A stretch of DNA of 64,000 bases, taken from positions 35,114-99,113 of the IMG/VR virus record IMGVR_UViG_3300025087_000044. One strand, 5' to 3'. This document shows positions 2,915-57,518 of this stretch, piece by piece; within the stretch, counting starts at the first letter, position 1, and each line of letters opens with the position of its first letter. Source of the DNA: a virus. The notes under the pieces were generated by a model. It did no database searches and was not told where the DNA came from. It saw only the letters and a program-made list of their open reading frames with translations. The position numbers and the translations under genes are program-made.

Positions 2915-3373
2915 ATGCAAACAAAACAAGCAATTCAAGCAAGTGCGAATGTAGTGCGAATAACATCTATCTCTGCTGGCGATCTGTATAAAAGATTTGA
3001 CGAATCTTATGATGATAGGGTTTATTACGGAATTGTCAAAAAAGTCCATAATGACGGAGAAAAAACGGTAATTGAGGCAGTAGAATACAGATATTCATGG
3101 AACTCCTTGGAAGTGGATTATAAAATTATTAGAGGAGAAAAAGACTTTACTATTTTCCCCGCCACACAAGAAGAATTTAATCTTGAATTGGGTAAGGCAA
3201 AAAAGAAAAAAATTCAAGAAATAAAAGAATCAGAAGAAAAGATAGAAGAAAACAAAAAAGTCTTAGAAGAAATCAGCAAAATGGAATCGGGAGAACTAAT
3301 GGCAGGCCTAAAAAGCGTTAGCTATGCAGAATTAACGCAAGAACAATATAACGAAAGAATGCTTTTGAAATAA
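2915..3373 (+). CDS. hypothetical protein with C-terminal coiled coil
   Basis: 152 residues. Residues 15-90 look like a mixed alpha/beta domain (VVRITSISAGDLYKRF...). Residues 95-130 are a Lys/Glu-rich heptad-like stretch (KKKKIQEIKESEEKIEENKK) expected to form a coiled coil. The leader carries repeats of CTAA. Function unknown. Confidence 0.6.
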   Translation: MQTKQAIQASANVVRITSISAGDLYKRFDESYDDRVYYGIVKKVHNDGEKTVIEAVEYRYSWNSLEVDYKIIRGEKDFTIFPATQEEFNLELGKAKKKKIQEIKESEEKIEENKKVLEEISKMESGELMAGLKSVSYAELTQEQYNERMLLK

Positions 3374-3392
3374 CTAAATAATATAAAAAAGT

Positions 3393-6847: not shown

Positions 6848-6875
6848 TTTACAAATCTATTCAATCTGCTACAAT
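6848..6875 (+). promoter_or_regulatory. sigma70-type promoter of the 6880-7280 RNA
   Basis: TTTACA 6848-6853, 16-bp spacer, TACAAT 6870-6875, with TGC before the -10 as in the other promoters here. It has the CCCC flank shared with promoters at 12578 and 16164. Transcription would begin near 6880, exactly where the first stem of the structured RNA begins. Confidence 0.6.
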
Positions 6876-6879
6876 TTAA

Positions 6880-7280
6880 TTAGGCAAAAAATAAGCTAAC
6901 CTTACAGAAAATAACTTTCTAGTGCCTAAACAATATAAGCGATGTCAAATCGTTTCGTGTGTTAATCTCATTTAAGATGTGTCTTGCCTTTAAAACGGCA
7001 GTACCAACACGGGTACATTTGACACACATCTTAGCTGAGATTTTTTGTTATTTATATCCTGTTCGGAATAAAAGAGATATAACGGTCACACGCTAACGCT
7101 ACGACCCAAACTGTCCCTCCCGATTCCGAGCAGGATATAGGTAACTATAGTCTTCCCCCAGAGTTGCTAGCTACTCTATAAGCGGACTTAAAAAGGCTTA
7201 TGTCAAGCTAATCCTTGGGCGTGCAGGAACCGCTCTAAATAGCCTGCCTTTATACGAGTTTCACCACAAAAGTCCTTTTA
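6880..7280 (+). ncRNA. large structured non-coding RNA, unknown class
   Basis: About 400 nt with no ORF behind its own promoter. Stems: TTAGGCA 6880-6886 with 6923-6929; a 17-bp helix with one internal loop, 6964-6982 with 7024-7042, holding two apical hairpins (TGCC/GGCA and GTACC/GGTAC); a 17-bp helix 7053-7069 with 7123-7139 (one G-U) closing a branched 53-nt loop; AGAGT/ACTCT near 7160-7177; and GGACTT 7184-7189 with 7270-7275, enclosing AGGCT/AGCCT. A T-run follows the second helix at 7041-7046, so a shorter transcript is possible. It is not tmRNA, RNase P RNA or 6S RNA by eye. Confidence 0.65.
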
Positions 7281-9730: not shown

Positions 9731-11860
9731 ATGTTTACCTATAAAAAAGATGGATTCAATGTTCCAGTCAAAAGTTGGATACCAGAAAAAGATTATTATT
9801 CTGACGTTGCTATGGTTGAACAGTGCGAGAATTTGGCAAGGTTGCCTTTTTCTTTCGGACACGTTGTCTTGTGTCCTGACGGACATGTTGGTTTCGGTTG
9901 CCCAATCGGTTCAGTCGTTGCAACTAAAGCTGTAATAATTCCCAATGTTTGTGGGGTAGATATTGGAGCTGTAGATAGGGATACTGAGATTTTAACTAAA
10001 AGTGGATGGATTACTATAGATAAATATAACAACATTGATGATGTCTTAATTTATGATAATTACAAGCAAACTTCCTTTTTTAGCAAGCCATTGTTGTATA
10101 TTGTAAAACCTTGTGAAGATTTTACGGAATACAAAAGCAAATATGGATTAGACCAGGTTTTGAGTGACGAGCATAGAATGTTGGTTTATGAAGGGTATGG
10201 AAAAGATAGAACAAACAATACTTATTTTTGTAAGGACTTTAGGGAAAAATTATCAAAATTAAAAAAACAAGATTATTATTCAGTAAGAACGACGTTCGCA
10301 ACAAATGAAAAGGGAATAAAATTAACAGATGAGCAGATAGCTATTATGGTAATGGTTTCTGCTGATGGTCATATTAGAAAACAGTCTAGTGTATATACAA
10401 ATGTAGAGATGCATTTTAAAAAGAGTAGAAAAATAAATCGTTGTAAGGTTTTGTTGAATAAAGCAAAAGTTAGTTTTAAAGAATATGACCACAGTGATAA
10501 GACAAAGTCAATAATCTTTAAGTTAGATTGGGAGTGTAAGAAAGAATTAACTGCTTTATATCTATGTAATCAGCATCAGGCAAAAGTTGTTTTTGACGAG
10601 TATTTGTATTGGGATGGAACCATTGATAAAAAAAGAAATCATAAAATGTATTCCACAACAAAGAAAGTAAACGCCGATGTTGTTCAGTATATATGTGCCG
10701 TGAATGGAGTTAGGGCTGGCATACATCTTCAAAGTTATAAAAATGAAAATTGGAATGATTCATATAGCGTGTATCAAACGAGAAACGAATATGTTGGATT
10801 CAGTCGTCCCCAAAAAATAAAGATACCAAACGGTAACAAGTATTGTTTTGTTGTTGAAACTGGATATTTTGTTGCTAGAAGGAATAACAAGATATTTGTT
10901 ACTGGAAACTGTGGAATGATTGCGGTTAAAACATCTCTTACTGAATTGGACAGAGAAACATTAAAAAAGATTCTTGGTAATATAAGACAAACGATTCCTG
11001 TAGGATTCGAACACCACAAAACAGACCAAGACATTACCCTCATGCCGAATTATGGGTTAGGAGCAGGTGGCGAAATAACAGGAAGAGAGTACATGTCAGC
11101 CCTAAGGCAGATTGGAACACTTGGTGGAGGTAATCATTTTATCGAAATCCAAAAAGGAGATGATGGGCATATCTGGATAATGATTCATTCGGGTTCGAGA
11201 AACTTAGGAAAGCAAGTTGCTGATTATTATAACAAAGTCGCTATTGAGTTAAACGAAAAATATCACTCCTCAGTACCTAATGAATGGCAGTTAGCGTTTT
11301 TGCCTGTTGACAGTCAAGAAGGACAGAATTATATTTCCGAGATGAATTATTGCGTTGAGTTTGCGTTGGCTAATAGACAGTTAATGATGAGCAGGATAAT
11401 TGATATTTTCTGCAAGCATACAGAATTGGCTGCTAAGGGTTGGGAACCGCCAATCAATATAGCTCACAATTATGCCAAGCAAGAAAATCATTACGGACAA
11501 AATTTATGGGTTCACAGAAAAGGAGCAACGTTAGCGCAAGACGGAACAATAGGAATAATCCCTGGCTCACAAGGTTCAAGTTCGTTCATCGTTAAGGGCA
11601 AGGGAAGTAAAGAATCATTTAATTCATGTTCACATGGTGCAGGAAGGCTTATGAGCAGAACCAAAGCCATGGCCACTCTTAACCTTGAAGATGAGATAAA
11701 GAAACTTGACGACCAAGGTATTTTGCATGCAATCAGAGGCAAGAAAGACCTTGATGAGGCAAGCGGTTCTTATAAGAACGTAGAAGAAGTAATGAACAAT
11801 CAATCTGATTTAGTGGATATTTTAGTAAAATTAAGCCCAATGGGTGTCGTGAAAGGATAG
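9731..11860 (+). CDS. rtcB: RNA-splicing ligase RtcB with intein
   Basis: 709 residues as translated; about 395 after removal of a 314-residue intein (residues 80-393). The extein ligates RNA 2',3'-cyclic phosphate to 5'-OH ends using GTP and Mn2+. Visible motifs are GVDIG-CGMIAV (rejoined metal-binding Cys), GGGNHFIEI, HSGSRNLG, NIAHNYA and SCSHGAGRLMSR with the guanylated His. All catalytic motifs are present, so the spliced enzyme should be active. With the RNA ligase at 13812 and phage tRNAs, a role in repairing cleaved tRNAs is likely. Confidence 0.93.
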   Translation: MFTYKKDGFNVPVKSWIPEKDYYSDVAMVEQCENLARLPFSFGHVVLCPDGHVGFGCPIGSVVATKAVIIPNVCGVDIGAVDRDTEILTKSGWITIDKYNNIDDVLIYDNYKQTSFFSKPLLYIVKPCEDFTEYKSKYGLDQVLSDEHRMLVYEGYGKDRTNNTYFCKDFREKLSKLKKQDYYSVRTTFATNEKGIKLTDEQIAIMVMVSADGHIRKQSSVYTNVEMHFKKSRKINRCKVLLNKAKVSFKEYDHSDKTKSIIFKLDWECKKELTALYLCNQHQAKVVFDEYLYWDGTIDKKRNHKMYSTTKKVNADVVQYICAVNGVRAGIHLQSYKNENWNDSYSVYQTRNEYVGFSRPQKIKIPNGNKYCFVVETGYFVARRNNKIFVTGNCGMIAVKTSLTELDRETLKKILGNIRQTIPVGFEHHKTDQDITLMPNYGLGAGGEITGREYMSALRQIGTLGGGNHFIEIQKGDDGHIWIMIHSGSRNLGKQVADYYNKVAIELNEKYHSSVPNEWQLAFLPVDSQEGQNYISEMNYCVEFALANRQLMMSRIIDIFCKHTELAAKGWEPPINIAHNYAKQENHYGQNLWVHRKGATLAQDGTIGIIPGSQGSSSFIVKGKGSKESFNSCSHGAGRLMSRTKAMATLNLEDEIKKLDDQGILHAIRGKKDLDEASGSYKNVEEVMNNQSDLVDILVKLSPMGVVKG
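9968..10909 (+). mobile_element. intein with LAGLIDADG endonuclease in RtcB
   Basis: 314 residues inserted exactly between Gly79 and the metal-binding Cys of GVDIGCGM. It begins AVDRDTEILTKSGW (block A, with Ala instead of Cys or Ser as residue 1) and ends NKIFVTGN before +1 Cys, with Gly instead of the usual penultimate His. LAGLIDADG-like motifs are IMVMVSADGHI and FDEYLYWDGTI. The Ala1 start suggests an alternative splicing mechanism in which the +1 Cys attacks directly. Confidence 0.88.
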
Positions 11861-27732: not shown

Positions 27733-27894
27733 ATGAAAACAACAACAGAAGAACAATCTAAAGTAGTTGAAGATAAAATAACGGGACGCTCAACTGCAAC
27801 TGGTGAATTGTTTTTAGAAAGAAGTAAATTGGCTAAAATAATTGTTGAATTGTTTGACAGGATAGAAGAACTTGAGAATAAGTTGCGTCAATAA
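27733..27894 (+). CDS. small helical protein overlapping tRNA-Gly
   Basis: 53 residues (MKTTTEEQSKVVEDKITGRS...), ending in a coiled-coil-like IIVELFDRIEELENKLRQ. Its last codons encode the 5' acceptor strand of tRNA-Gly. Start in GAAATAATATG. Confidence 0.5.
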   Translation: MKTTTEEQSKVVEDKITGRSTATGELFLERSKLAKIIVELFDRIEELENKLRQ

Positions 27895-27956
27895 TTCATG
27901 GGTTAGAATCTGAGATTTCCAATCTCGGTAAAAGGGTTCAAGTCCCTTTTGACGCT
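27885..27956 (+). tRNA. tRNA-Gly (TCC)
   Basis: Acceptor GCGTCAA with TTGACGC (7 pairs), D-arm ATTC/GAAT, anticodon stem TGAGA/TCTCG with loop TTTCCAA (anticodon TCC), T-arm AAGGG-TTCAAGT-CCCTT, discriminator T, no encoded CCA. It begins inside the end of the 27733 gene and lies 39 bp before the hammerhead ribozyme. Confidence 0.9.
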
Positions 27957-27962
27957 TCGTGG

Positions 27963-27989
27963 GTATCCATGAGGTTGTACGCAGGATAC
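27963..27989 (+). other. hairpin between tRNA-Gly and hammerhead
   Basis: GTATCC 27963-27968 pairs with GGATAC 27984-27989. Its loop holds GAGGTTG 27971-27977, which is complementary to CAACCTC 28091-28097 beyond the ribozyme, so a pseudoknot enclosing the ribozyme is possible. Confidence 0.45.
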
Positions 27990-27995
27990 ATCTAG

Positions 27996-28073
27996 CACTC
28001 CAATTAAAAGCGACTGATGAGAGAGTAACCCTCTCGAAACTCATGAGAGTCTCGCGGAGTAGCCCTAGGAGTG
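27996..28073 (+). ncRNA. type I hammerhead self-cleaving ribozyme
   Basis: All core elements are present in order: outer stem I CACTCC 27996-28001 with GGAGTG 28068-28073; inner stem I GCGA 28010-28013 with TCGC 28052-28055; CTGATGA 28014-28020; stem II GAGAG/CTCTC with TAACC loop; GAA 28036-28038; stem III ACTC/GAGT with ATGA loop; cleavage-site C at 28051. The internal loop of stem I could make the usual tertiary contact with loop II. Cleavage would fall between 28051 and 28052 and separate tRNA-Gly from the message downstream. Confidence 0.93.
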
Positions 28074-28112
28074 GAATAACTGGCTACCAGCAACCTCTTT
28101 AGCAAATAGTAC

Positions 28113-28154: not shown

Positions 28155-28547
28155 ATGCCCTTGCGTTATAATCGTATGGATAAGAATATAAGTGAAATGT
28201 TGAATTGCTTCATGGACAGCAATCTTAGAATAAAGGAAAGCTCAGAAATTGATGTTCCTAAAAGAACTGGAGATACGGGGTTTGACGGGGACGTGTGTTC
28301 TTATGCAGTAGGAGGCTTTCCGGTTCCTAGTGGTACAGTCCCTATGACTGGTTGGAATTGGTGGCAAGATTATTATTACCCCAATGTAATAAGAGAAGTC
28401 TATCCTGTATACGTCCAAGAAAGAACAATTGATTCCGGCAAGAAAGCCTATGAGATAATTAAAGCTCTCAATGACAAGAAGATTATCAAACTGGACAAGG
28501 TGTCAGACTTTGTTGAAGCTATGGACTTATTGATTAAAATGTTGTAG
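28155..28547 (+). CDS. hypothetical protein inside an inverted repeat
   Basis: 130 residues. The middle is aromatic and Gly/Pro-rich (YAVGGFPVPSGTVPMTGWNW, then WQDYYYPNVIREVYPVYV). The C-terminal helix (YEIIKALNDKKIIKLDKVSD) is conserved-looking. No family recognised. It lies between the hammerhead ribozyme and the terminase and is flanked by a perfect 17-bp inverted repeat. It ends in TAG. Confidence 0.55.
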   Translation: MPLRYNRMDKNISEMLNCFMDSNLRIKESSEIDVPKRTGDTGFDGDVCSYAVGGFPVPSGTVPMTGWNWWQDYYYPNVIREVYPVYVQERTIDSGKKAYEIIKALNDKKIIKLDKVSDFVEAMDLLIKML

Positions 28548-28617: not shown

Positions 28618-29517
28618 ATGGAAGAAGTTGTCAATCCCAAAATAAGTACCGAGGCAAGGATAGGGTATACCGTTAAGGCAAATCAATGGAGTGCTAAAGG
28701 TGGATTGATAAGTCATCTCATGAAGACTGAGCCTGGATTTAGAGAGTTCTTTCATGAAGAGATAATGAAGAAGAGTATTCCTGTTGGAGTGTTTATTGCT
28801 AGAATGAGAGAAAAGTTTCCCAAGCTTGATGAAGAGATGTATCCGTGTGAAGCTACGGTATATAACTATAAGAGGAAGTTAAAGAAAGATTTGAATGACG
28901 ACGCTAACATTGGCCTTGCCATGAAGAGCGAGATAAAGATATTGCAGACGATGGATGGGTTTAATTTCTTCGAAGAGGTGAAAGACATCTATGATAAGAT
29001 ATGTTTTTCAGTAGATATAGCAGAGAAAGCCATTGCTCACATAGTGGATTTGATGGAGAGGACTAAGTTGCCGCCACAACCATTGTGGGATGCCTTGCTT
29101 AACATGAAGGAGTTATTGAAAGCAAGGTCAGAGCATCTTAGTGAGTTGGATAAGTTGAGTGTGAGGTTCGGACTTATGCCAGCCAGAGAAGAACGCAATA
29201 TCATTTTTGCCCAGCAGAACAACATCATGACAATGAATGACGAGCAGGTTGATGTCATGGGTAAGATTGGATTGAAAGTAGAAGATTTTGAAGACGATAA
29301 TCTTGAGAAGACTATGAGTAAAGTAATGGGATATTATTCAAAAACGTATGGAATTGGAGAACAACAATCTGGAGCAATCCTTGTTGAAGGACAGTCAGTT
29401 CAGGATGATGGACCAGAAGAAACGCTCCAACCAGATGAAGATATTGGAAATGATAGTCCAAATGGAGAAGATAAAACTGGAAGGGAAGCGGAGCCTATGG
29501 AAGAAGAGTTACTTTGA
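28618..29517 (+). CDS. putative terminase small subunit
   Basis: 299 residues, directly before the large terminase. The N-terminal third (GLISHLMKTEPGFREFFHEE, ATVYNYKRKLKKDLND) looks like a DNA-binding helical domain. The centre is helical (IVDLMERTKLPPQPLWDALL) and the last 50 residues are acidic (DDGPEETLQPDEDIG). Gene position and architecture fit a small terminase, which would recognise packaging DNA. No direct motif proves it. Confidence 0.55.
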   Translation: MEEVVNPKISTEARIGYTVKANQWSAKGGLISHLMKTEPGFREFFHEEIMKKSIPVGVFIARMREKFPKLDEEMYPCEATVYNYKRKLKKDLNDDANIGLAMKSEIKILQTMDGFNFFEEVKDIYDKICFSVDIAEKAIAHIVDLMERTKLPPQPLWDALLNMKELLKARSEHLSELDKLSVRFGLMPAREERNIIFAQQNNIMTMNDEQVDVMGKIGLKVEDFEDDNLEKTMSKVMGYYSKTYGIGEQQSGAILVEGQSVQDDGPEETLQPDEDIGNDSPNGEDKTGREAEPMEEELL

Positions 29518-30985
29518 TTGGGTAAAGGACAACTGGTCAAGCAGGGGAAATAAGTTGGATTTCAATAATAGAAAATATCTTGAGCAGGTTTATAAAGACC
29601 AAAGCCAAGAGATTGTCTATAAGAAATCTGCTCAGGTGGGAATAACTGAAAGGATGGTGTCAGAGGCGGTATGGCTTCCGGACCAGATGCCAAACAATTC
29701 ACTTTATCTATTTCCGACTTCGACTACCATGTCAGACTTGGTTCAGGAGCGTGTGGATATGCCATTGAACAACTCTGATTTCTTGCGAGAGATTTCAGCA
29801 AGAGCCAAGAAGTTAATGGGCAAGCAGGCGGACAACGTGGGATTGAAGCGGATGTCCAAAGGCTATATCTATTTCAGAGGAAGCAATAGTCCTGCAATGA
29901 TTACCTCTGTTTCAGCTGATGCCATATTCGTTGATGAGCTGGACAGGATGACAATGGAGAACGTTCCTTATTTTGATAAACGGTTATTGAATTCCGATTT
30001 AAAATGGAAGCGTTGGGCAAGCACACCAACCGTTCCAGGTTACGGGATAGACAAGAAATGGATGGAAAGCGACCAGCATATTTATCTGGTTAAGTGCAGC
30101 CATTGCAATGAGATTCAAGAACTTACATTCTGGGATAATGTTGACGATGTTAATGAAACGGTTATCTGCAAGCGATGTCATAACATTATCATTCCATGGA
30201 CGTTGAGCGGTGAATGGGTCAAGACCAAGGAGTCAGAGGTTAGAGGATATTACATCAACCAACTTTATTCGCCTAAACTTGATTTGCATGACATGATTAA
30301 GGCTTCAATAAAGACTTCCGATTCAGATGTACAGCAATTTTACAATCAGAACTTAGGTCTTCCGTACGAGCCTAAAGGAGCAAAGTTGAACAATGCTGAT
30401 ATCCAGAGTTGTATCAGAGATTATGTTTATCCAGCCAACGAAGAAACTGAATTTATCGGGATTGATGTAGGTAAGGTGTTTCATGTTGTGGTGTTGGGAG
30501 TTAATCGGTTCTTGGATGCACAGTCGTTTAGGACAAAAGAAGAACTGATAAACTTCCTTTCGGGTAGGAATTTCAAAGGAATGGTAATTGACGCATTGCC
30601 CGAGACCAGAGTTTCACAAGAGGTTGTAAGTTCATTCTCAGGCCGAGCACATTATTGTTTCTATGCTTTTTCAAAACCAAGTACTGATGAATGGTGGAAG
30701 GTTGATGAGGACAAGGTGGGTACGGACAGGACTTTATCATTAGACGTTCTATTCAACCGTATTAAGACGCAAGACTTAGAGATGCCCAAGAACATCTTGG
30801 AGCATACTGAATTCATTGCTCACTTAAAGTCAACGTCAAGGATAGTTGATATGGAAGGTTCAAAACCCGTGGTTGAGTATAAAGAAACAAGTGCCGACCA
30901 TTATCTGCACGCCATGAATTATGCCAATTTGGCAAAAGACATATTCGAAAAGACTAATTCAGAACCTGTAATAATGTTCATATAG
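29462..30985 (+). CDS. terminase large subunit, GpA-like
   Basis: 507 residues from the ATG at 29462; longer starts back to 29348 would overlap the previous gene by 170 bp. DQSQEIVYKKSAQVGITERM is the adenine/Walker-A-like region, SVSADAIFVDELDRM is Walker B with the catalytic Glu, and IGIDVGKVFHVVVLGV begins the RNase H-like nuclease. A zinc knuckle (CSHCNEI...CKRCHN) lies between. These are features of GpA-type terminases, which package DNA into proheads and cut it. The protein is somewhat shorter than lambda gpA. Confidence 0.85.
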   Translation: MEKIKLEGKRSLWKKSYFDWVKDNWSSRGNKLDFNNRKYLEQVYKDQSQEIVYKKSAQVGITERMVSEAVWLPDQMPNNSLYLFPTSTTMSDLVQERVDMPLNNSDFLREISARAKKLMGKQADNVGLKRMSKGYIYFRGSNSPAMITSVSADAIFVDELDRMTMENVPYFDKRLLNSDLKWKRWASTPTVPGYGIDKKWMESDQHIYLVKCSHCNEIQELTFWDNVDDVNETVICKRCHNIIIPWTLSGEWVKTKESEVRGYYINQLYSPKLDLHDMIKASIKTSDSDVQQFYNQNLGLPYEPKGAKLNNADIQSCIRDYVYPANEETEFIGIDVGKVFHVVVLGVNRFLDAQSFRTKEELINFLSGRNFKGMVIDALPETRVSQEVVSSFSGRAHYCFYAFSKPSTDEWWKVDEDKVGTDRTLSLDVLFNRIKTQDLEMPKNILEHTEFIAHLKSTSRIVDMEGSKPVVEYKETSADHYLHAMNYANLAKDIFEKTNSEPVIMFI

Positions 30986-34796: not shown

Positions 34797-36734
34797 ATGA
34801 AACCAACAATAGGATTCGTAGGGCAAGGGTTCATAGGTTCAGCTTACTCTGATGACTTTGAAAGGAGGGGGTATAAAGTCATCAGATATAGTTTAGATAA
34901 GTTTGTTGAAAACAAGGAAAAGATTGCTGAGTGCGATATTACGTTTATTGCAGTCCCTACGCCCTCAACTCCTGACGGGTTTGATTATTCCATAGTTGAG
35001 AACGTGTTGCAGCTTATCGGTAAAGAAAAGATTGCTGTCATAAAGTCAACTGTTCTGCCGGGAACTACTGAAAAACTGCAAGAAAAGTATCCTGATATTT
35101 ACTTGTTTCATTCGCCAGAGTTTTTGACTGAAAAGACTGCTATTTATGACGCAGCCAATCCTGCAAGAAACATAGTTGGATATACCGAGAAATCATTTTC
35201 CAAATCACAGAATGTAATGAATGTATTGCCTCCTGCTCCATTTGAATCAATCGTTCCTGTTAAAGAGGCTGAACTAGTAAAGTATGCAGGAAACTGCTGG
35301 TTCTATTTTAAGATTGTGTTTATGAATACTGTTTATGATTTGAGCCAAAAGTTAGGTATTGATTACGAGAGCGTTATCAACATGATGGCAGCTGACAAGC
35401 GAATAGGCAGAAGTCATCTTGACGTTGTCCATCAGGGTGGCAGAGGAGCAGGTGGCCGCTGTTTATTGCCGGACACTAAAATAATTACAGAAAAAGGAAT
35501 TAAAAACATTTGTGATATTGAAATTGGCGAGAGAGTGCTGACTCACACTGGAGTATTTAAAAAGGTAATCAATACTTCAAAAAGAGAAATCAATGAATTG
35601 ATAAATGTAATTAAGTGTCAGGGTACTCAGCCGTTTTATGTGACAAATGAGCACCCTGTATTTTCAGCTTTATCGAATAGAAAATATTGTGGTGTTAAAA
35701 AAAGAAAATTAACTAATGGAAACAAAGACAAGATAAAGTTAGATTTTAATTTATCAGAAAGTCTTAGTATTGGAGACTATATTTGTTTCCCAAAGTTTGT
35801 TCAAAAATCAGTTAGTTTTAAGATAGATGGATTAGAATTAAAATCAGAGCAAGATAAACTAGATTTTATGAGATTGGCTGGGTATTATATAGCTGAAGGT
35901 TGCAATGACAGAAAAAGAGTTAGTTTTGGGTTTAATATAAACGAGGTTGAGTATCACAAAGATGTTACTGGCATAATAAAGAGACTATTTGATTATGATG
36001 CGTGCATCAATAAAGATGTTAAACGTCACCAATATAATATAAGAATCAATTCTGTTAAAATGTCTAAAATGTTTCGAGATTTGTTCGATAGACTTTCTCA
36101 AAATATACACATACCAAACGAATGGCTATTGTTTGAAGATAAGTATCTTAAAGAATTGTTGAGAGGCTATTTTAGGGGAGATGGAAGTTTTAGTAAAAAC
36201 GTTTTTACTTCTGCCACTATATCATTTAAGCTTGACGAGCAACTAAGGTTCTTGCTTTATCGTTTTGGGATAGTTTACAATTCTCATCACAAGAATGAAA
36301 AGGTTGACAAGAATGGACTGTGTCATAAAAAATCTTATTATATTTGTGTTAGCAGTATAGATGAAACTCAGAAGATAGCAGATATTACTGGTTATGATTT
36401 TGTAAAAGATGTTAAACTGATTAGGCATACTGCTTTTGTTAAGGATAATTATTTGCTTAGGTCTATCAGAGAGATAGAAAAAATTAAATATACTGGTTTG
36501 GTTTATAATCTTGAAGTAGAAGGTGATAATTCCTACGTTGGACTAGATGGAGTTTGGCACAATTGCTTCGTCAAGGATATGGCAGCGTATGCAGAGATGT
36601 ATGAGGAGTATGTTGGCGAAGACATGATGGGCAATGATTTGCTTATTATAATCCAGCAAAAGAACATAGAATTGTTGCGTTCTTCTGGTAAGGATTTGGA
36701 TTTGGTTAATGGAGTTTACGGAGAAAAAATATGA
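34797..36734 (+). CDS. UDP-glucose/GDP-mannose dehydrogenase with intein
   Basis: 645 residues as translated, 277 after intein removal. N-extein IGFVGQGFIGSAYSDDF is the NAD-binding GxGxxG. IAVPTPSTPDG, TVLPGTTEKL, HSPEFLTE and KYAGNCW are typical of the family. The intein (residues 222-589) sits exactly at the catalytic Cys: GAGGR-[intein]-CFVKD rebuilds the GAGGRCFVKD active site. The product oxidises UDP-glucose to UDP-glucuronate or a related substrate. At 277 residues it lacks the usual third domain, so it is shorter than normal. Confidence 0.9.
   Translation: MKPTIGFVGQGFIGSAYSDDFERRGYKVIRYSLDKFVENKEKIAECDITFIAVPTPSTPDGFDYSIVENVLQLIGKEKIAVIKSTVLPGTTEKLQEKYPDIYLFHSPEFLTEKTAIYDAANPARNIVGYTEKSFSKSQNVMNVLPPAPFESIVPVKEAELVKYAGNCWFYFKIVFMNTVYDLSQKLGIDYESVINMMAADKRIGRSHLDVVHQGGRGAGGRCLLPDTKIITEKGIKNICDIEIGERVLTHTGVFKKVINTSKREINELINVIKCQGTQPFYVTNEHPVFSALSNRKYCGVKKRKLTNGNKDKIKLDFNLSESLSIGDYICFPKFVQKSVSFKIDGLELKSEQDKLDFMRLAGYYIAEGCNDRKRVSFGFNINEVEYHKDVTGIIKRLFDYDACINKDVKRHQYNIRINSVKMSKMFRDLFDRLSQNIHIPNEWLLFEDKYLKELLRGYFRGDGSFSKNVFTSATISFKLDEQLRFLLYRFGIVYNSHHKNEKVDKNGLCHKKSYYICVSSIDETQKIADITGYDFVKDVKLIRHTAFVKDNYLLRSIREIEKIKYTGLVYNLEVEGDNSYVGLDGVWHNCFVKDMAAYAEMYEEYVGEDMMGNDLLIIIQQKNIELLRSSGKDLDLVNGVYGEKI
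35460..36563 (+). mobile_element. intein with LAGLIDADG endonuclease in the sugar dehydrogenase
   Basis: 368 residues starting CLLPDTKIIT and ending GLDGVWHN, followed by +1 Cys, the standard class 1 splicing residues. NEHPVF is block B, LAGYYIAEGC and LRGYFRGDGSF are the two LAGLIDADG motifs. Insertion at the catalytic Cys codon makes splicing essential for activity. Confidence 0.92.
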
Positions 36735-55300: not shown

Positions 55301-57518
55301 GTAATGTAGTGACATAGAAGATAAAGAACTTCTATTATAACAAAATTGAATGAAGTTACGGTGGTTCCGATGAAGAGGGACATCATGAAGATTCCGACAT
55401 TGACATCTGGCCCGAAAGTAGCTTGGACGGCTGAGAATGCCGCGAAAAGCACAACGACAGCTACGTTCGATGAGGCGACTTTGACCGTCAAAAAGATGGC
55501 CGCCATAAAAATACATTGTGGCACTATACTGAAAAGTATAGTTAAAAATTCGGTAAATTGCTGGAAAACCCTGTTTCAAAACAGGACAATCAGCAGCCAA
55601 GCTTTGGCTTAAATGGCCAATGAAGGTTCAGAGACTAGGTGGTGAAACTATATATATAGAATATATCCACTCACGAAAACCGAATATCTATTTTGAACTT
55701 TGACAATTGACAATTACACTCTCATTATATATAATACAATTATTTATAAACTAATTGTGATATTGTATGAGAGAAAGAATAATCCTTGATAAAAAGACAA
55801 ACAGACTTGGAACGCTAAGTTATTTTGTGAAATGTGTTATGTGCGGAAAAGAGTTCTGGATAACAGAAAGTCAATTCAAAGACGGAAGAGGCCTTTACTG
55901 TTCACAGAAATGTTATCACTCTGACCCATTAGTAATTGATAATTTCAACAAAAGTTTTGCTTCGTTTAAAAAGGGAAAAGCTTCATGGAGTAAAGGGTTG
56001 ACTAAAGAAACTAGTATAATTATAAAACGAATGGCAGAAAAAAGAATTGGTGATAAGCATCCGTTATGGAAAGGAGGAAGAGCCAAAATGACTGGCGGAT
56101 ATATCGGTGTATTGATTCCAGAGCATCCAGATGCCAATGTTAACGGACGAGTTTTAGAACATAGATTGGTAATGGAAAAGAAACTTGGAAGAAGACTTGT
56201 TCATTACGAAGAGGTCCATCATAGAAACGGAATTAAAACTGATAACAGACCAGAAAACTTAGAGCTTGTATTGAAGTACAAACATCAAGGAGAAATTCAA
56301 TGTCCATATTGTCAATGTATGTTTAAAATAAAATAGATAATGATATAGTCCGACCTTACAGGAAACTGTAAGAAGCAGAAGATAAAGAGCTTTTGCGATA
56401 ACAAATTGAATGTACATCTCGGACGAATTGGTAGAAGATTCTGATAGCATCGACATCGTTAAGTTCATTGTTACTTTGTTCTCTGAAGCGATTGGAACCG
56501 AAGAAGACCGTGTTATCACAGCGGGTAACGGAACTACTGAGCCTACCGGCTACAATACTTCCGCCAATCCTGGAACGATAGCATGTTCTGGCAACTTGAG
56601 TTATGCCAACATGGTAGACCTCGAGTACACTTTGCCTGCGAAATATCATCGCAATGCAAAGTTCTTCGCGCACAGGAACAACATTCGAGAACTCCGCAAG
56701 ATGGTGGATTCCAATTCACGTCCTTTGTGGAGCGACCCGATTGCTCCTGGCCAGCCCCCGACATGGCACGGATTAAGTGGTAGTCCCTGTTATGCGTAAT
56801 CATAACAGAAAAGACGGTGAATTGCTGGAAAACCCTGTTTCAAAACAGGGCAATCAGCAGCCAAGCTTTACCAGTAATGGTTTAGAAGGTCCAACGACTA
56901 GGGGATGAGTCCACGTAGTGGATGATAATTTCCCCCAAGAGTGCCGTCCACCTTGAAAAAGGTGATGATATAGTCTGAACACTGACTATAAATAAAATCA
57001 GTGAAGCAAGAAATAAAGAGTTCTTGCGATAACATAATTGACCAAGTCGTTGAAGACAACAATCTGCCTGAGTCAGTTATCGCCTTTGGCGATTTGAAGC
57101 AGGCTTATTGGTTGGGCGACCGCAAGTCTATGACAGTGAAGGTAACTCAGGACACTGAGACTGCATTAACTGGTACATCGTACAAGTGCAGTATAAAGAG
57201 GATGAATTGCTGGGAAGCCCTGAAATGGGTTATCAGCAGCCTAGCTTTGCCAGTAATGGCTTAGAAGGTTCAGAGCATAGAGTCCGAGTCCCTCCGGGAC
57301 GATAATGACTCCACGAGCGTCCTCAATCCATTAGTTTAATGGATTATGATATATGCCGACCACCAGATATGAATAAAACTGGTGAAAAGTCAGATAAAAA
57401 ACTGGCTTGTTAAAAATATTTAGTTGTCCATGACCAAACAGCTGTCCGTGTTGTTTCTCGCATTGCAGGTAATGTAGTTAATCCGTACGCTATCAAGAAA
57501 CTTACAAACATTCCGTAG
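52324..57518 (+). CDS. HK97-fold major capsid protein gene in seven exons
   Basis: Exons: 52324-52677, 53649-53678, 54547-54600, 55349-55506, 56409-56773, 57041-57166, 57427-57518, total 1179 nt = 392 residues plus TAG. Joined, the product has an N-terminal scaffold/delta-like helical domain (1-115), then ALSEG-TAADGGYLFP-DEFVSEVV, the E-loop region, NNLPESVIAFGDLKQAYWLG, DTETA-FHDQTAVRVVSR and IAGNVVNPYAIKKLTNIP, all hallmarks of HK97-type capsids. The start overlaps the protease stop as ATGA. About 77% of the gene is intron. Confidence 0.93.
52678..53648 (+). mobile_element. group I intron 1 (with HNH ORF)
   Basis: P1 pairs exon GAGGGT with GCCCTC at 52690-52695 (U-G at the splice site). 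The core has AATTGCTGG, AATCAGCAGCCAAGC and GAAGGTTCAACGACTA (P3, P4, P7 regions). It ends GATAACATAATG with the terminal G at 53648. An HNH ORF fills the distal part. Confidence 0.9.
52915..53574 (+). CDS. HNH homing endonuclease in intron 1
   Basis: 219 residues. Two zinc-ribbon repeats (ECVNCHKPF...CSNSCRG; CMVCGTRV...CSKRCKD), then an HNH core: RVCMICGVNEKDLRESLNVH, HIDYDKKNSNINNLISLCNV, CHSKTNSNREYW. It is expected to cut intronless capsid alleles near the intron site and so spread the intron. A TATAAT at 52894 precedes the ATG but its -35 is weak. Confidence 0.88.
   Translation: MRKILQKIKTARGIGYVMECVNCHKPFRIKKWDYDNLRKGTYCSNSCRGEYQRVSLVGKLNPNWKGGKVQIKCMVCGTRVMIKVKDAKRGGKYCSKRCKDYDNSRVVKMNYANNPGLRDKTKHVGDKNGRWLCGKSFEPYTTSFNEHTKNIVKDRDNRVCMICGVNEKDLRESLNVHHIDYDKKNSNINNLISLCNVCHSKTNSNREYWRNYLSSLIVN
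53850..53878 (+). promoter_or_regulatory. promoter of the intron 2 HNH gene
   Basis: TTGAAT 53850-53855, 17-bp spacer, TATAAT 53873-53878, 27 bp before the ATG at 53905 and inside the intron. Confidence 0.6.
53905..54474 (+). CDS. HNH homing endonuclease in intron 2
   Basis: 189 residues. A basic NUMOD3-like N-terminus (SLAHFGHPAWNKGKKMPEWW, MKGRHHSDKTKEKQRKSNKT), then an HNH core: DYTCQDCNVRGGKLEAHHIK and MDNGLTLCKKCHSKIS, with two CxxC pairs. Part of intron 2; a related remnant lies at 31511. Confidence 0.88.
   Translation: MRKGSKMTLEQRKRVSLAHFGHPAWNKGKKMPEWWGRLSSERVLAGIGGMKGRHHSDKTKEKQRKSNKTKLLWQNPDYRKMMSEKHKWLTGKNNPAYIDGRKPLVMRVRNSEKYEKWIKSVFERDDYTCQDCNVRGGKLEAHHIKGFSKIFSENNFKTFEQVMDCEEMWNMDNGLTLCKKCHSKISTRR
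54775..55212 (-). CDS. HNH homing endonuclease, antisense in intron 3
   Basis: 145 residues and the only convincing minus-strand gene of the window. FCIDCNKQIPKKNLRCASCN is an N-terminal zinc ribbon. GYVPEHRLIASIKYNKQLTK, DVVHHLNGIRNDNRPENLVI is the HNH core with HH and N. Its end overlaps intron core sequence, so its own mRNA would be antisense to the spliced message. Confidence 0.85.
   Translation of the reverse strand: MLRKKIVNFCIDCNKQIPKKNLRCASCNYKLPERGATISKRQMLSGNPMWRGGKFNTADGYVKVKMRNHYLSDSNGYVPEHRLIASIKYNKQLTKQDVVHHLNGIRNDNRPENLVITDKKGNGEKTFIKCLQEHIKFLESQLSKL
55241..55269 (-). promoter_or_regulatory. minus-strand promoter of the intron 3 HNH gene
   Basis: Read on the minus strand: TTTACT (55269-55264), 17-bp spacer, TACAAT (55246-55241), about 29 bp before its ATG at 55212. 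Confidence 0.5.
55707..55735 (+). promoter_or_regulatory. perfect consensus sigma70 promoter of the intron 4 HNH gene
   Basis: TTGACA 55707-55712, 17-bp spacer, TATAAT 55730-55735, an exact match to the consensus in both elements and spacing, 31 bp before the ATG at 55767 and inside the intron. Confidence 0.75.
55767..56336 (+). CDS. HNH homing endonuclease in intron 4
   Basis: 189 residues. A CVMCGKEFW...YCSQKCYH zinc ribbon at the N-terminus, a basic linker (FKKGKASWSKGLTKETSIII), then LEHRLVMEKKLGRRLVHYEE, VHHRNGIKTDNRPENLELVL (HNH core) and a final CPYCQCMFK zinc knuckle. Confidence 0.88.
   Translation: MRERIILDKKTNRLGTLSYFVKCVMCGKEFWITESQFKDGRGLYCSQKCYHSDPLVIDNFNKSFASFKKGKASWSKGLTKETSIIIKRMAEKRIGDKHPLWKGGRAKMTGGYIGVLIPEHPDANVNGRVLEHRLVMEKKLGRRLVHYEEVHHRNGIKTDNRPENLELVLKYKHQGEIQCPYCQCMFKIK
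56774..57040 (+). mobile_element. group I intron 5 (no ORF)
   Basis: 267 nt. P1 pairs exon GGAT with GTCC at 56783-56786. P2 is the hairpin CTGTTATG/CATAACAG. Core AATTGCTGGAAAACCCTG to CAGCAGCCAAGC is near identical to intron 4. Ends CGATAACATAATTG with G at 57040. Confidence 0.85.
57167..57426 (+). mobile_element. group I intron 6 (no ORF)
   Basis: 260 nt. P1 pairs exon ACTGCAT with GTGCAGT at 57186-57192, seven pairs with U-G at the splice site. Core GAATTGCTGGGAAGCCC, ATCAGCAGCCTAGC, GAAGGTTCAGAGCATA. Ends TATTTAGTTG with G at 57426. Its P7 region departs from the others. Confidence 0.83.

Follow-up and report, generated by a model that had tools for sequence, protein, structure and literature searches.

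Hammerhead ribozymes cleave RNA to leave 2′,3′-cyclic phosphate and 5′-OH ends, and the role of those found in bacteria and phages is an open question. The tRNA cluster of phage T4 also encodes two stable non-coding RNAs, C and D, of unknown function. Type I hammerheads have been described in phages including PaP3 and Bcep176, by a search in which mispairs next to the catalytic core were a ground for rejecting matches (Perreault et al. 2011, PMC3088659), and theta ribozymes of tailed gut phages have been proposed to process tRNA 3′ trailers (Kienbeck et al. 2024, PMC10879173).

Here we analyze an RNA encoded in a 64,000-nucleotide stretch of viral DNA (the window; bases 35114–99113 of a 99,113-base virus record), for which a sequence-only reading had proposed a type I hammerhead that cuts between tRNA-Gly and the packaging genes. 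Comparison with relatives strongly supports that proposal and sets the predicted ribozyme within a larger conserved RNA. We consider it probable that this RNA represents a new class of structured phage RNA, with a double-pseudoknot core that functions independently of the hammerhead, with direct and circularly permuted forms carried by phages that are not related to one another, in their operons and tRNA arrays, and with the hammerhead as a module that can be acquired or lost. An RNA that occurs with the hammerhead, without it, and in permuted form bears on the question of what bacterial and phage hammerheads do, and the class would supply a structured RNA family that Rfam 15 lacks.

Genomic setting and hammerhead domain

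The window carries, in order, a 53-aa ORF (27733–27894), tRNA-Gly, and the RNA, followed by two ORFs that have no family match and then by the terminase. The tRNA (27885–27956, plus strand; anticodon UCC, no encoded CCA) was called by ARAGORN and matches Rfam RF00005 at 55.3 bits; the stop codon of the 53-aa ORF lies inside its 5′ acceptor strand, giving a 10-nt overlap of mRNA and tRNA. The first ORF 3′ of the RNA encodes 130 aa and has no family match (28155–28547, plus strand), and the terminase large subunit (29348–30985, plus strand) matches phrog_675 (1e-93) and PF05876. A blastn search of the window against phage records returned no match, and no relatives of the terminase were found in IMG/VR when it was used as the query. 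Elsewhere the window holds two group I introns (RF00028; 55497–55739 at 59.4 bits and 56764–57001 at 78.9 bits), a UDP-glucose dehydrogenase gene with an intein (34797–36734; LAGLIDADG and Hint domains), and a gene for an RtcB RNA ligase split by an intein-like insert (9731–11860; best NCBIfam match “intein-containing RctB family protein”).

All parts of the RNA described below lie on the plus strand. The hammerhead core comprises C3–A9, which reads CUGAUGA (28014–28020), and G12, A13, and A14 (28036–28038), the latter conserved among relatives. Stem I pairs GCGA (28010–28013) with UCGC (28052–28055), stem II (28021–28035) pairs GAGAG (28021–28025) with CUCUC (28031–28035) across the loop UAACC, and stem III pairs ACUC (28039–28042) with GAGU (28047–28050), that is, A15.1–U16.1 plus CUC/GAG, across the loop AUGA. 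All core letters are thus present at 28014–28051, and the three stems follow type I order, as had been claimed, with the open end in stem I, and stems I, II, and III covary among relatives. C17 (28051) closes a GUC triplet, which fits the cleavage predicted by the sequence-only reading, between 28051 and 28052. The downstream product would begin with a 5′-OH on the 3′ strand of stem I, followed by a conserved GGAG (28052–28059); the GCGGAG within this stretch is kept in members of the family that have no hammerhead.

A scan for the hammerhead architecture over the two strands of the 64-kb window found exactly one site, where ∼0.003 per window would be expected by chance (1 in 300 dinucleotide-Markov copies of the window). 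The searches for members relied on conserved letters, so part of the conservation at those letters follows from the way members were selected, a limit from which pair covariation and the core count of the following scan are exempt. When only letters outside the hammerhead core were asked for, 33 distinct members were recovered, and the core was canonical in 31; CUGAUGA was invariant in these except at N7, which was U, C, or A, and position 17 was C (15), A (14), or U (2), never G. A free N7 and the avoidance of G at position 17 are known rules of the hammerhead ribozyme. The two exceptions, L173 and L174, are decayed in appearance. Pair 10.1–11.1 is GC in 25, AA in 12, and UU in 4 of 42 parsed members.

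A conserved double-pseudoknot RNA

The conserved unit spans ∼140 nt (27958–28098) and extends well past the hammerhead. Its layout, read from the 42 distinct parsed members, runs 5′ to 3′ through an optional outer stem P0 of up to 19 bp, CGUGG, a hairpin H1 with one strand of pseudoknot PK1 in its loop, GCAG, AUCU, stem Ia, stem I, and the hammerhead; after the hammerhead come GGAG, the first strand of pseudoknot PK2, the 3′ strand of Ia, GAAUAAC, the second PK2 strand, CCAG, the second PK1 strand, and the 3′ strand of P0. In the window, H1 pairs GUAUCC (27963–27968) with GGAUAC (27984–27989), and in relatives it is 100% paired, with covariation at 4 of 6 pairs. PK1 joins GAGGUUG in the H1 loop (27971–27977) to CAACCUC (28091–28097), with two-sided changes at 7 of 7 pairs and 98–100% pairing, and PK2 joins UAGCC (28060–28064) to GGCUA (28082–28086), with two-sided changes at 5 of 5 pairs and 99–100% pairing. 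Stem Ia, an outer extension of stem I, pairs CACUCC (27996–28001) with GGAGUG (28068–28073) and covaries at 5–6 of 6 pairs. Many unpaired letters of the core are invariant, and the conserved ones cluster around the two pseudoknots; GAAUAAC (28074–28080), for example, is nearly unchanged throughout. A possible further helix, formed by CGUGG and CCAG, found no support, as both motifs are invariant, or broken in divergent members.

The sequence-only reading had noted that the loop at 27971–27977 can pair with 28091–28097; this pairing is exact, is PK1, and covaries at all seven base pairs in two independent sets of relatives. Its extent for the element, 27996–28073, holds for the hammerhead with its stem extension and falls short of the conserved unit, and its distance of 39 bp from tRNA-Gly likewise applies to the hammerhead domain, whereas the RNA as a whole starts 2 nt past the tRNA end at 27956. 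It contained neither PK2 nor the larger double-pseudoknot RNA, the relatives without a hammerhead or in permuted form, or the expected pairing of the cut halves.

The first relative, L002, was the single IMG/VR match to a strict pattern; the hammerhead is the same, and the H1 loop and the downstream strand have changed together (GUGCCCC/GGGGCAC). Looser patterns in IMG/VR yielded dozens of members, and a covariance model, R1, was built from 16 of them with the window left out. R1 found the window RNA as its sole match in the 64 kb, at 120.9 bits and E = 7e-35, a rough value given the short calibration. Across the 16 seed sequences, 99.1% of cells were paired and 27 of 36 pairs showed two-sided changes. 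Among 29 sequences outside the model, including the window copy, 97.7% of cells were paired, compared with 67.6% in shuffled and 33–43% in slid controls; 29 of 35 pairs had changed on both sides, with covariation again at 7/7 pairs of PK1 and 5/5 of PK2. Because the pseudoknots were left out of the model, the alignment does not lean towards them. When helix partners were swapped, none of 500 shuffles gave helices as long as the real ones, for each of H1, PK1, PK2, Ia, stem I, and P0.

These results bear on whether the site could be a non-functional sequence that resembles a hammerhead by chance or through decay. The point in favor of that reading is that no Rfam model matches at cut-off. The comparison with the Rfam hammerhead models, a check whose failure the sequence-only reading had named as refuting its proposal, was formally negative: the best in-register match in the window, obtained by searching a narrow stretch at E up to 10, was RF03152 (RAGATH-1 hammerhead) at 14.2 bits, far under its cut-off of 56.3, and a sibling RNA in an E. 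coli prophage matches RF00163 in register at 24.7 bits (E 4.5e-4), also under cut-off. Taken alone, these scores would be unconvincing; since the family-specific model succeeds, however, they appear to reflect the narrowness of the Rfam models. Chance origin was rejected on the basis of the Markov copies, the independent model match, and the pair covariation, and with core conservation added, absence of function through chance or decay becomes extremely improbable. The hammerhead is real by every available sequence test, and its cleavage activity is predicted.

Genomic context and a possible role in processing

The RNA is single copy in all 50 member records; an apparent second copy in the record of L058 corresponds to two contig ends. 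A survey of the Burkholderia anthina family found it in 1 of 300 genomes, the seed genome itself, and it therefore looks like a phage or prophage element, not a host RNA. The nearest ORFs are on the same strand upstream at 25 of 38 loci and downstream at 30 of 45, a modest enrichment, and, by mechanical ORF calls, a same-strand ORF ends 6–25 nt 5′ of the RNA at 11 loci and starts at most 100 nt 3′ of it at 18. The RNA abuts a tRNA 3′ end in the window and in L078, L088, L182, and L187, and many members have no tRNA neighbor. Adjoining genes encode terminases, portal, helicase, RtcB, and proteins without known function, and because they differ so widely, no single gene or mRNA is served.

We give roughly even chances to a reading in which the RNA is a processing and end-protection element, placed between operon segments and between the tRNAs of phage arrays, with its halves held by the pseudoknots. 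By position, the window RNA would lie in one transcript, downstream of a ParB-like gene, the small ORF, and tRNA-Gly and upstream of the packaging genes. The compact core consists of H1, stem Ia, and the two pseudoknots, with the type I hammerhead on the end of stem Ia. After transcription, the hammerhead would cut past C28051, so that the upstream piece, tRNA plus H1, would end in a 2′,3′-cyclic phosphate and the downstream mRNA would begin with a 5′-OH at UCGCGGAG, before GCGGAG. PK1, stem Ia, and stem I would then hold the two pieces together and bury the new ends. Comparison establishes the fold, its covariation, the conserved hammerhead core, one copy per phage, and the variants; we infer that such cleavage may occur in the cell, with the halves staying together, and that the resulting processing or protection may benefit the phage. 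Beside this comparative evidence, points for the role are the intercistronic sites, the abutment of tRNA 3′ ends, a tRNA–RNA interval in the window that is free of promoter- or terminator-like sites, and a permuted form in which the predicted cut would release the whole core; the modest same-strand enrichment and the widely differing neighbors count against it. The core also persists without the hammerhead and may therefore do its main job without cleavage.

Ends of this kind might serve as RtcB substrates, and the RNA would then be rejoined or circularized after cleavage, an outcome we regard as very unlikely. The window phage does encode RtcB, and in L081 an RtcB gene (618–1775) starts 28 nt past the RNA (450–589), but RtcB is absent from 46 of 50 member records, and the difference between 4 of 50 and 0 of 42 control contigs falls short of significance (Fisher test, one-sided, about 0.08, computed by hand). 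We therefore rejected an RtcB partnership as weak. With one hammerhead per genome, moreover, no unit is excisable, and excision of an RNA circle by paired hammerheads is ruled out by single copy everywhere.

Members without the hammerhead and permuted forms

About nine members, mostly in phage tRNA arrays, have no hammerhead and retain the rest of the RNA, including H1, Ia, PK1, PK2, and the motifs GCGGAG, GAAUAAC, and CCAG; a scan with shorter spacing recovered L182–L184 and L186–L192. L089, which has the hammerhead, and L184 and L190, which do not, are close relatives with near-identical RNA elsewhere, and the hammerhead has therefore been gained or lost as a module. Their contrast also offers ready-made natural controls for what cleavage adds. 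Three contigs with hammerhead-less copies carry other RNA genes: L182, a 7.1-kb IMG/VR contig with 27 tRNA genes, has a bacterial class A RNase P RNA (2968–3382, 266 bits) near the copy; L186 has a Y-RNA-like match directly 5′ of it (YrlA, 1982–2122, 45 bits, under cut-off); and L188, a phage contig with 20 tRNAs, has a CUA-anticodon tRNA called as tRNA-Pyl (6860–6933).

In the permuted form, the order is hammerhead, 3′ half of the core, a closed P0 hairpin, H1, and Ia, and the predicted cut would free a complete core with a 5′-OH at GCGCGGAG. This form lies between capsid and tail genes in Enterobacter phage SDFMU_EhYP, adjoins tRNA-Met in Pectobacterium phages, is found just 3′ of a tRNA on Acinetobacter plasmids of 100–160 kb, and sits, unannotated, between the antiterminator Q and holin lysis genes in E. 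coli prophages. About 15 of 5,426 complete E. coli genomes have a match covering at least 80% of the query, and the presence of the RNA in these prophages makes it amenable to study in a laboratory host.

These variants bring in the main rival of the processing element: the double-pseudoknot core may be a stable non-coding RNA in its own right that acts in trans, for instance by blocking a host or defense factor, with the hammerhead at its edge as an optional maturation device. We hold this possible, if tentatively. It would account for the retention of helices and motifs in hammerhead-less members, for L089 differing from L184 and L190 in the presence of the hammerhead alone, and for a permuted form whose cleavage would leave the core intact; the many invariant unpaired letters, a P0 of up to 19 bp, and the constant single copy fit as well, and such an RNA might be made inside operons and tRNA arrays by analogy with T4 RNAs C and D. 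On the other side, cleavage of the direct form, as in the window, would split the core in two, the RNA does not resemble RNAs C and D, and terminators of its own are generally absent (upstream at 2 of 56 loci, downstream at 4 of 57). A stand-alone transcription unit between terminators was seen at only a few loci.

The position of conserved unpaired letters around two pseudoknots joined directly to a ribozyme, often 5′ of a gene, would also suit a natural aptazyme, with transcript cleavage turned on or off when a ligand or protein is bound by the core. The downstream genes are, however, unrelated to one another and the core survives without the ribozyme, and we consider this explanation unlikely.

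Comparison with known families

Rfam 15 has no model for the RNA as a whole, and searches at E up to 10 give only the weak in-register hammerhead matches. The open-access literature, as distinct from subscription papers and supplements, describes phage hammerheads, theta ribozymes, and permuted hammerheads, but not the present RNA. The catalytic motif is already known, and the RNA containing it is absent from Rfam 15 and the open-access literature, although an earlier description may exist.

Like the present RNA, T4 RNAs C and D are non-coding and come from a phage tRNA array, but they show no resemblance to it in sequence or architecture. With theta ribozymes (PMC10879173) it appears to share a self-cleaving nature, a source in tailed phages, and frequent tRNA-gene neighbors. 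Theta ribozymes have an HDV-like fold, however, whereas here the covarying fold is that of a hammerhead, no HDV-like Rfam match appears at E up to 10, the predicted cut is ∼95 nt beyond the tRNA, and many members lack a neighboring tRNA; the RNA thus falls outside the HDV-like group.

Hammerheads of types SGC and CSG (Eckert et al. 2023, PMC10085705) likewise combine several pseudoknots with a rearranged relative. In those, the catalytic blocks themselves are reordered, whereas here they follow the classical order CUGANGA–GAAA–UH in direct and permuted forms alike, with circular permutation confined to the outer domain, which separates the RNA from the non-circularly permuted types. RAGATH-1 (RF03152) is the sole Rfam hammerhead model in register with the window, and it too has a hairpin 5′ of stem I. 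That hairpin does not match H1, the model has no counterpart of the 3′ pseudoknot half, and the score of 14.2 against 56.3 bits sets the RNA outside this family as well.

With type I hammerheads (RF00163; PMC3088659), the window RNA shares core letters, type I order, stems I–III, and triplet rules. The PaP3 and Bcep176 hammerheads were compared and are not members of the present family. Unlike RF00163 hammerheads, the one described here has a stem I of only 4 bp followed by an asymmetric loop in which one PK2 strand lies, and pair 10.1–11.1 is an AA or UU mispair in 16 of 42 members; the rejection of core-adjacent mispairs in the 2011 search may be one reason why the class was missed. Above all, it is embedded in a conserved double-pseudoknot RNA, and the window carries the full set of features that distinguish this family, namely H1 with PK1, Ia, PK2, CGUGG, GCAG, AUCU, GCGGAG, GAAUAAC, and CCAG, together with its 120.9-bit match to the 16-member model.
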